Shown here one piece after another: positions 45,614-47,042 of a stretch of 64,000 nucleotides of DNA. Position 1 is the first letter of the stretch; each line of letters starts with the position of its first letter. A program made the translations under genes and the position numbers. The notes below the pieces were generated by a model, which was given only the letters and a program-made list of their open reading frames with translations, did no database searches and had not been told where the DNA came from. Origin of the DNA: Crenobacter oryzisoli (lineage in GTDB: Bacteria; Pseudomonadota; Gammaproteobacteria; Burkholderiales; Chromobacteriaceae); contig NZ_JAUEDK010000023.1 in NCBI RefSeq assembly GCF_030385785.1, positions 1 to 64,000 on the forward strand, given 5' to 3'.

Positions 45614-46246
45614 TCAGTGGCGCGAGGCGAAGGCTAGTCGGCATGCCAGTGCGGCGAATACCGAACCGAGTAGGTACTGCGGCAGCTTGTGATAACGCAG
45701 GCTGGGCGATGCCAGGCGGCGCAGGCGGCTGGCGGTCAGGATCACCAGGCCGTTCACCAGCAGGCCGACCAGGTTCAGCACGGTAGCCAGTAGCAGCATC
45801 TGCAGCACCAGCGAGCTGCTGCCCGGTTTGACGAATTGCGGGAACAGCGCCAGCACGAACAGCGCCATCTTGGGGTTGAGCAGATTGGTCAGTAGCCCTT
45901 GGCGGAACACTCGCCCCAGCGGCAGGCGCGGCGATGCGCCATCAGGGGTGCTGGCTACGCCATCGGCTCGCACGGTTTTCCAAGCCAGGAAGAGCAGGTA
46001 GGCGGCACCGGCGAGGCGGACCACATCGTAGGCGACCGGTACCAGCAAAAACAGCTGTGACAGCCCCAGAGCGGCGGCCAAGGCATGGCAGTAGGTGCCC
46101 AATTGGATGCCGGCCAGGGAGGCGAAGCCGGCGCCGCGGCCCTGGCTGACGCTGCGCGAGGCGATCAGCAGCATGTCCGGGCCGGGGGTCGCAGCCAGCA
46201 CCAGGCAGGCGGAAGCGAACAGCGCAAGTGTGTAAATGTCCGGCAT
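45614..46246 (-). CDS. LysE/RhtB-family amino acid exporter
   Basis: A 210-residue membrane protein with six predicted helices and the family N-terminus: LVLAATPGPDMLLIASRSVS, GFASLAGIQLGTYCHALAAA and, mid-protein, RVFRQGLLTNLLNPKMALF. Such proteins export amino acids such as homoserine, threonine, lysine or leucine; the substrate cannot be told. I start at the ATG whose complement is 46244-46246; an in-frame extension upstream adds a non-membrane tail of 17 residues. Confidence 0.9.
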   Translation of the reverse strand: MPDIYTLALFASACLVLAATPGPDMLLIASRSVSQGRGAGFASLAGIQLGTYCHALAAALGLSQLFLLVPVAYDVVRLAGAAYLLFLAWKTVRADGVASTPDGASPRLPLGRVFRQGLLTNLLNPKMALFVLALFPQFVKPGSSSLVLQMLLLATVLNLVGLLVNGLVILTASRLRRLASPSLRYHKLPQYLLGSVFAALACRLAFASRH

Positions 46247-46380
46247 GGCGGGGGCCTCGGGAAAAGGCGAGTGTAGCATGCACGCCGCGGCGCGCATGGC
46301 TGCCCAGGCCTATGGCCTTCTGAGATTGCCGGCTTATCAATCACTTGGCGTTATCGCAGTGCGGGAGTATAAGAAACCTC

Positions 46381-46463
46381 GTCACACACTGTGACAAACT
46401 GTGACGCACTGCAACATCTGTAAACACTTCTACACTGGAGTCCTGGCGCCGGACCGATACAAT
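46381..46463 (+). promoter_or_regulatory. Repeat-containing promoter region of a candidate sRNA
   Basis: GTCACA-CAC-TGTGAC (46381-46395) followed by AAAC and TGTGACG (46400-46406, adjacent CACTG) gives three TGTGAC-type half-sites in 27 bp. A -10-like GATACAAT (TACAAT at 46458-46463) lies about 55 bp downstream, without a consensus -35 box, consistent with an activated promoter. The predicted start is near 46470. Confidence 0.45.
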
Positions 46464-46469
46464 GAGCTT

Positions 46470-46601
46470 GTACCTGCCGTCGTCCTGAACCCGTTCAGGT
46501 GGCACCCGCGGAATCCCCCTCTGCACGGTGCCATGGTATGTGCAGCTTTTCTCCTTCTTTGTGTCCAAGCTTAGCGGCGGCCCCATGGCCGCCATTTTTT
46601 T
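46470..46601 (+). ncRNA. Candidate small regulatory RNA
   Basis: Between a promoter-like element and a strong terminator (GGCGGCC-CCAT-GGCCGCC-ATTTTTTTT, 46575-46601) lie about 130 nt without a credible gene. They contain CCTGAA-CCCG-TTCAGG (46484-46499) and GGCACC...GGTGCC (46501-46532) whose 20-nt loop has the C-rich CCCCCTCT, complementary to a Shine-Dalgarno. A pyrimidine-rich single-stranded stretch (46547-46565) precedes the terminator. This is the build of an Hfq-dependent trans-acting sRNA. I could not match it to a named family. Confidence 0.5.
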
Positions 46602-46841
46602 TGTCGACCAAAAGCCGCTGCTATCGGGGAAGGCCAGCGTCGCCAAGCGTATCCATGGCGAGATGTAGGCCTACGGCACGCGAAGCCCTGCGAAAGACAA
46701 GGAACTGGCAAGATCGCCGCAGGCGGCTAACCTTGATCTGATGGTCGGCGTGTGATGGTTGCCCACTGTCTTGCTCGTTGCGGCCCAGCTCGATGTGGGC
46801 TCATGAGCGCTGGTGCTTATCGGATCGATCGGTCTCTGTCC
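46602..46841. other. Intergenic region before the DUF2905 gene
   Basis: 240 bases after the candidate sRNA terminator. Short open frames run through it but none has conserved-looking sequence or a good ribosome-binding site. I see nothing else in it. Confidence 0.4.
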
Positions 46842-47042
46842 ATGCAACGCTTCCTCGTTATTGTCGGGCTGCTGCTGGTCATCGTCGGTGTGGCCTGGCC
46901 TTGGCTGTCAAAGTTTCCGCTTGGTCATCTGCCGGGTGACATTCACATCGTCAGGGCGGGATTCAGCTTCCACTTTCCTATCGTGACGTGCATCGCCATC
47001 TCTCTGCTGCTGTCCCTGCTGCTCTGGATCTTTCGGCGCTGA
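46842..47042 (+). CDS. DUF2905 small membrane protein
   Basis: A 66-residue protein of the DUF2905 type: MQRFLVIVGLLLVIVGVAWP, then PLGHLPGDIHIVRAGFSFHF and a second membrane helix ending IFRR. Two membrane helices flank the conserved LPGDI-x(4-6)-F-x-F-P segment. The function of the family is unknown. The ATG at 46842 matches the family's N-terminus; no clear ribosome-binding site is seen. It converges on the HugZ-like gene. Confidence 0.88.
   Translation: MQRFLVIVGLLLVIVGVAWPWLSKFPLGHLPGDIHIVRAGFSFHFPIVTCIAISLLLSLLLWIFRR

Follow-up and report, generated by a model that had tools for sequence, protein, structure and literature searches.

An element in the 64,000-nt window analysed here (the whole stretch of contig NZ_JAUEDK010000023.1 under study, from the 4.93-Mb genome of Crenobacter oryzisoli) is very probably a small RNA (sRNA) gene. 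The complete explanation that we favour, and that we consider fairly probable, is that of a free-standing, factor-controlled sRNA gene of ~130 nt whose product would repress by pairing with ribosome sites. According to this model, a regulator, which may be a response regulator of the OmpR family, would bind the tandem 10-bp half-sites and activate a promoter with a poor −35 box, and the resulting sRNA would fold into a stable three-way junction and stop at a terminator whose U tail could be held by Hfq. The exposed pyrimidine linker, which is invariant, would then pair with the ribosome-binding sites of chosen mRNAs, with a UCCCCC loop in support, both segments mimicking the anti-Shine-Dalgarno sequence of the ribosome, and translation would be blocked. 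Conservation, the predicted fold, the arrangement of promoter and terminator, the independence from neighbouring genes and an hfq gene in both genomes are seen in the sequences, and transcription, the class of activator, Hfq binding, repression and targets are inferred from them. Such a gene would add a lineage-restricted regulatory RNA to the little-studied Neisseriales group, and its clean anatomy (operator, promoter, junction fold, contact linker and terminator) would make its regulator and targets directly testable.

Locus and Conservation of the Element

The comparison set for the element comprised two sequences, the window genome and a single congener, taken as Neisseriaceae bacterium JH1-16 (record JAPDNP010000008.1). 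The DNA search gave a congener match with 85% identity over 46390-46601, and the local alignment had the same ends, the first promoter repeat (46390) on one side and the T tract (46601) on the other. Outside this segment, no local alignment between window and congener was obtained, and the global alignment returned scattered matches only. The genes around the element also differ, since in the congener a methyl-accepting chemotaxis receptor gene, and not the LysE-type gene, is found upstream on the same strand, while a PNPOx-family gene lies downstream, convergent with the element, with the DUF2905 gene absent between them and no same-strand gene close behind. The different upstream gene and the convergent downstream gene lead us to regard the element as a unit of its own. 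In this way, the proposal of the earlier note, a free-standing and terminator-ended sRNA gene with anti-Shine-Dalgarno character, was supported as a conserved unit with differing neighbours, and the repeats, TACAAT box, UCCCCC loop, pyrimidine linker, terminator and T tract were all found in place (Table 1).

Identity along the element was unevenly distributed. The repeats (46390-46425) were identical at 33/36 positions, the following segment 46426-46434 at 7/9, the −35 candidate at 5/6, the spacer 46441-46455 at 8/15 and the −10 region 46456-46463 at 8/8. Within the predicted RNA, the 5′ arm of the junction (24/24) and its 3′ arm (13/14) were nearly unchanged, seven of the 11 aligned positions of the 12-position first hairpin were identical, and the terminator kept 15/18, with its three changes all in the loop, an unchanged stem and a tail identical at 8/8. 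The variation is placed where a promoter followed by a putative folded RNA would permit it.

As for the surroundings, DUF2905 separates the sRNA from the PNPOx-family gene in the window and not in the congener, a difference reflecting a local gain or loss. In the latter, the end of the PNPOx-family ORF (L002 1482-1499) is placed ~17 nt from the sRNA terminator, and its mRNA could extend antisense into the sRNA.

Table 1. Features of the candidate sRNA locus, with positions in the window unless a locus handle is given.
Feature	Position	Strand	Basis or remark
Operator-like tandem repeats, four TGYRA units	46389-46425; starts 46390, 46400, 46410, 46419	+	Conserved in congener
Poor −35 candidate CTGGAG	46435-46440	+	2/6 to TTGACA by eye; 17 bp before −10
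−10 box TACAAT	46458-46463	+	Sequence; RNA start placed near 46470
Predicted sRNA, ~133 nt	46470-46602	+	Conserved block, fold, terminator
Three-way junction domain	46466-46546	+	Predicted fold
Junction arm with C-rich loop	46501-46532; UCCCCC 46514-46519	+	Fold; loop core kept in congener
Open pyrimidine linker	46547-46575	+	Mostly unpaired in ensemble
Proposed contact site UCUCCUUCUUU	46550-46560	+	Within pyrimidine linker
Intrinsic terminator (hairpin 46576-46593) with 7-bp G+C stem, then A and eight T	46576-46602	+	
LysE-type ORF	45614-46297	−	Probable start 46243; upstream flank of element
DUF2905 gene	46842-47042	+	Downstream flank, 240 nt past terminator
Mechanical ORF overlapping element	46341-46646	−	No Pfam match
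Mechanical ORF overlapping element	46499-46741	+	No Pfam match
Second element	L106 1434-1600; L107	− (L106); + (L107)	G000:C27 and G001:C1

Predicted Promoter and Operator-Like Repeats

The four TGYRA units are spaced by 10, 10 and 9 bp and end just upstream of the −35 candidate. This four-unit chain was the only one in the window on both strands and did not arise in 5000 rounds of mononucleotide shuffling of the region, and a three-box version of the pattern occurred once in the window against 0.01 expected, both figures referring to a motif that was defined after the repeats had been seen. When the promoter stretch was used as a DNA query, the E values of all other places in the two genomes were 0.64 or weaker. 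A sigma-70 scan did not call the promoter on the plus strand, its sole promoter call being on the opposite one. A poor −35 box suggests that an activator is required, and the arrangement of the repeats suggests that a tandem-site activator acts on the putative sRNA promoter. It was described in an excerpt of one report that many regulators of the OmpR family bind direct repeats and that the OmpR site is a 20-bp tandem (PMC7380067). The layout of such operators, though nothing beyond the layout, is matched here by tandem direct half-sites ~10 bp apart placed just upstream of the −35 candidate, and the assignment of the activator to the OmpR family is offered tentatively, as a possibility slightly below even chances.

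Predicted RNA Fold and Terminator

The segment 46466-46603 had a predicted folding energy of −52 kcal/mol against −38.1 ± 3.3 for dinucleotide shuffles (z −4.17), none of the 200 shuffles being as good. The same was observed when the terminator was left out (46464-46546; z −3.19, 0/200 shuffles as good), whereas the RNA of the congener was less exceptional (z −2.78, 2/200 as good). Each of the two RNAs was predicted to form a three-way junction, followed by an open linker and then the terminator. The two stem-loops reported in the earlier note are, in this prediction, arms of one three-way junction instead of separate hairpins. Among the 41 consensus pairs of the two sequences, four had a one-sided compatible change, and none was broken or changed on both sides; these changes are consistent with the predicted fold, the covariation being thin.

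It had also been proposed that pairing of CTGCAC with GTGCAG would compete with the C-rich loop and switch the RNA between conformations. The complementarity is real, but all its pairs had a probability of 0.0 to four decimals, and forcing them cost 6.4-10.1 kcal/mol in the window RNA, depending on the assumed start. In the congener, one of the six pairs was lost and the forced alternative cost 10.4-15.0 kcal/mol, again depending on the assumed start. The switch was rejected, the alternative pairs being improbable and costly in both RNAs.

Alternative Explanations

The same conserved block could be explained without a trans-acting sRNA. It might be a cis-acting leader or attenuator of the DUF2905 gene, which lies on the same strand 240 nt past the terminator in the window; however, the congener keeps the element next to a convergent gene, with no DUF2905 gene between, and this change of neighbours, which also speaks against a conserved 3′ UTR, makes a leader extremely unlikely. 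The element could otherwise be an inert remnant kept only by recent common descent, since it is carried by just two related genomes whose neighbouring genes were rearranged. Against this stand the absence of local alignment beyond 46390-46601 and the distribution of changes, which fall in the promoter spacer and the loops and spare the boxes, linker and stems, and we regard a remnant as very unlikely.

Two further readings give the block a function of another kind. A 14-codon frame including the stop (MVCAAFLLLCVQA, 46533-46574) runs over the 3′ arm and the linker and is open in both species, with a GTG start in the congener, as a gene for a small protein or leader peptide would be. However, no ribosome site was seen by eye in front of it, its start is buried in a predicted helix, and variation is no greater at its third codon positions than at the other two, a pattern that points to selection at the RNA level. 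We regard a peptide gene as highly improbable. The RNA could instead act as a structured molecule whose junction domain binds or titrates a protein, with no mRNA pairing, which would be in line with a junction that alone beats 200/200 shuffles and is larger than the carrier of a seed needs to be. Nevertheless, among the open stretches the longest one without any change is the pyrimidine linker, and the junction hairpins are the parts that vary, so that protein binding alone is considered quite unlikely. The trans-acting sRNA gene remains the preferred reading, and the sequence matches a trans-acting Hfq-type sRNA in its own promoter, intrinsic terminator, independence from neighbours and conserved unpaired contact region, the linker.

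Distribution of the Element

The predicted sRNA gene is restricted to the genus, no homologue having been found outside it among the genomes searched. At E ≤ 10, the DNA search matched all of the 61 family genomes, yet outside the genus there was nothing beyond terminator matches, the best having an E value of 0.0044 over the terminator part. A DNA search of 61 relatives likewise gave only terminator matches outside the genus. The order sample comprised 399 genomes, of which six had a match at E ≤ 0.001: the genome of the window itself and five more, in which the matches fell within query positions 186-225, corresponding to the terminator. The covariance model search (model R1), with stricter filters than the DNA search, matched 35/61 family genomes at E ≤ 1; only the two congeneric genomes exceeded 40 bits, and the next match reached 37.5. 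The surroundings of four weak R1 matches (G012, G036, G068 and G003) were inspected, and all four were rejected, as they overlapped protein ORF ends and rested largely on a terminator. Each of the two genomes had one DNA match and one strong R1 match.

Among 30 loci with the PNPOx-family neighbour, inspected out of 53 genomes, the element was found downstream only in the two congeneric genomes, and plasmid and phage records gave no match to it. In a collection of species genomes, an exact 21-mer of the linker, a query that would miss diverged copies, matched JH1-16 only. A covariance search of Rfam, suggested earlier as a check, gave no match at threshold for the element and called only tRNAs in the window. 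Titles and abstract starts in the literature, with subscription journals outside the scope, contained no report of this RNA and nothing for JH1-16 with Neisseriaceae.

Proposed Contact Site and Candidate Target

The linker segment UCUCCUUCUUU resembles the anti-Shine-Dalgarno sequence, and pairing of this kind through the linker is probable. In the earlier note, contact was ascribed to the C-rich loop. The UCCCCC core of this loop is indeed kept in the congener, but the linker is the likelier contact site because it is identical at 29/29 positions, against 24/33 for the hairpin bearing the loop.

In the two genomes, the linker 10-mer TTCTCCTTCT had no more than 5 and 6 occurrences. Complementary 10-mers were also counted, with 5 and 6 occurrences for AGAAGGAGAA (reversed control, 8 and 8) and 7 and 6 for AAGAAGGAGA (reversed control, 3 and 7), the 10-mer counts taking in the element's own opposite strand. 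Overall, the complementary 10-mers of the linker showed no excess over reversed controls in the two genomes, and counts of a 15-mer complement with up to two mismatches were similar to those of its reversed control; the single match of this 15-mer in the window was dropped since it sits in a coding stretch.

When the 10-mer loci were compared, two orthologous pairs were found besides the element itself. The first fell at the beginning of a gene for an efflux outer-membrane subunit (TIGR01845, 419 bits), which follows a gene for an RND permease. The ribosome site of the subunit gene contains AAAGAAGGAGA in both genomes (L127 1500-1521 and L118 1500-1521). This site overlaps the end of the permease gene and also encodes the last residues of the permease. 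A match to the locus was obtained in 60 family genomes, and 30 of the orthologous loci were inspected. The 11-mer was uninterrupted in 2/2 sRNA-bearing genomes, which are sisters, and in 0/28 loci from genomes lacking the sRNA. However, 7/28 of these sRNA-less relatives reached a duplex energy of −21.7 kcal/mol or better, and three of those −23.2 or better, the two values being the energies of the sRNA-bearing loci. Duplexes at 47 gene starts of the window had a mean of −11.4 (sd 3.5) and none equalled the efflux site, a rank that is no independent test of a target that came from the motif search. Shuffled linkers equalled the efflux duplex in 7 and 6 of 300 cases, and the 47 window starts, crude ones set by an ORF picker, did not in general favour the linker above shuffled versions of it. 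Three more places before a long frame were found in one genome each only (L119, L116 and L109). The equal energies in sRNA-less relatives and the existence of a second orthologous pair lower the odds of the efflux outer-membrane gene, which is thus a rather unlikely target and would represent one weak candidate, not a regulon. An hfq gene was present in 2/2 genomes, and the predicted sRNA has a U tail.

Comparison with Known Regulatory RNAs

MicF-type sRNAs are controlled by OmpR and act on outer-membrane proteins. The tandem half-site operator and the candidate outer-membrane target of the window RNA recall this arrangement, a resemblance of logic only, in which both regulator and target are putative. 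The earlier note had likened the element to the sibling sRNAs of Neisseria. According to excerpts of two reports, these RNAs (NmsRA/NmsRB, the same as NgncR_162/163) pair with ribosome-binding sites through a UC-rich linker and loop (PMC5362039, PMC9973317). The analogy of design holds as far as these excerpts go, both systems being terminator-ended and having a UC-rich open linker and a loop complementary to ribosome sites. Kinship does not follow, since the Neisseria RNAs are described there as lying in tandem between dsbB and lrp and as having three stem-loops, whereas the window RNA is a single copy in another place, lacks an Rfam match and has a three-way junction and a linker adjoining the terminator. 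The best of the weak Rfam scores, over the U-rich linker and terminator, were those for mmgR/suhB (RF00519; 17.5 bits, cut-off 41) and isrD (RF01388; 20.6 bits, cut-off 37), of which the RNA is not a member.

A Second RNA-Like Element with the Same 10-mer

The second orthologous pair was not a target, but a terminator-ended intergenic element, 88% identical between the two genomes and flanked by genes that we take, from their sequences, to be a SpoU-type methyltransferase gene and moaA. In both genomes it carries TTCTCCTTCT in sense orientation. In the window genome, the 10-mer lies in a predicted 16-nt hairpin loop AUAUUCUCCUUCUGGC (z −3.74, 1/200 shuffles as good), while in the congener the loop is partly paired in the predicted fold. 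Nothing was shared with the window RNA beyond the 10-mer and two 7-nt matches, and neither TGYRA units upstream nor an Rfam match was found for this element.

The occurrence of one 10-mer in two seemingly unrelated RNAs lends mild support to a functional pairing module, which, if true, would be used by both of them. A broader scenario is unlikely, in which the two sRNAs would converge as partners on one common set of mRNAs and would be expressed from different promoters, one with an operator of two-component type. In this scenario, the targets would include the channel gene of an RND-type efflux operon, which would be uncoupled from its pump within the mRNA that both share.

The linker-terminator part of the second element (CTTCCCCGATAC...) was also detected in 8 genomes of another genus with 79-82% identity, in which the two flanking genes were not beside it. 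In these 8 genomes, CTTCCCCGATACCTTG followed by a terminator is located near 1501-1550 of L168-L175, in non-syntenic positions and with no Rfam match, and elements of the CTTCCCCGATACCTTG type possibly constitute a wider sRNA family of the bacterial family.
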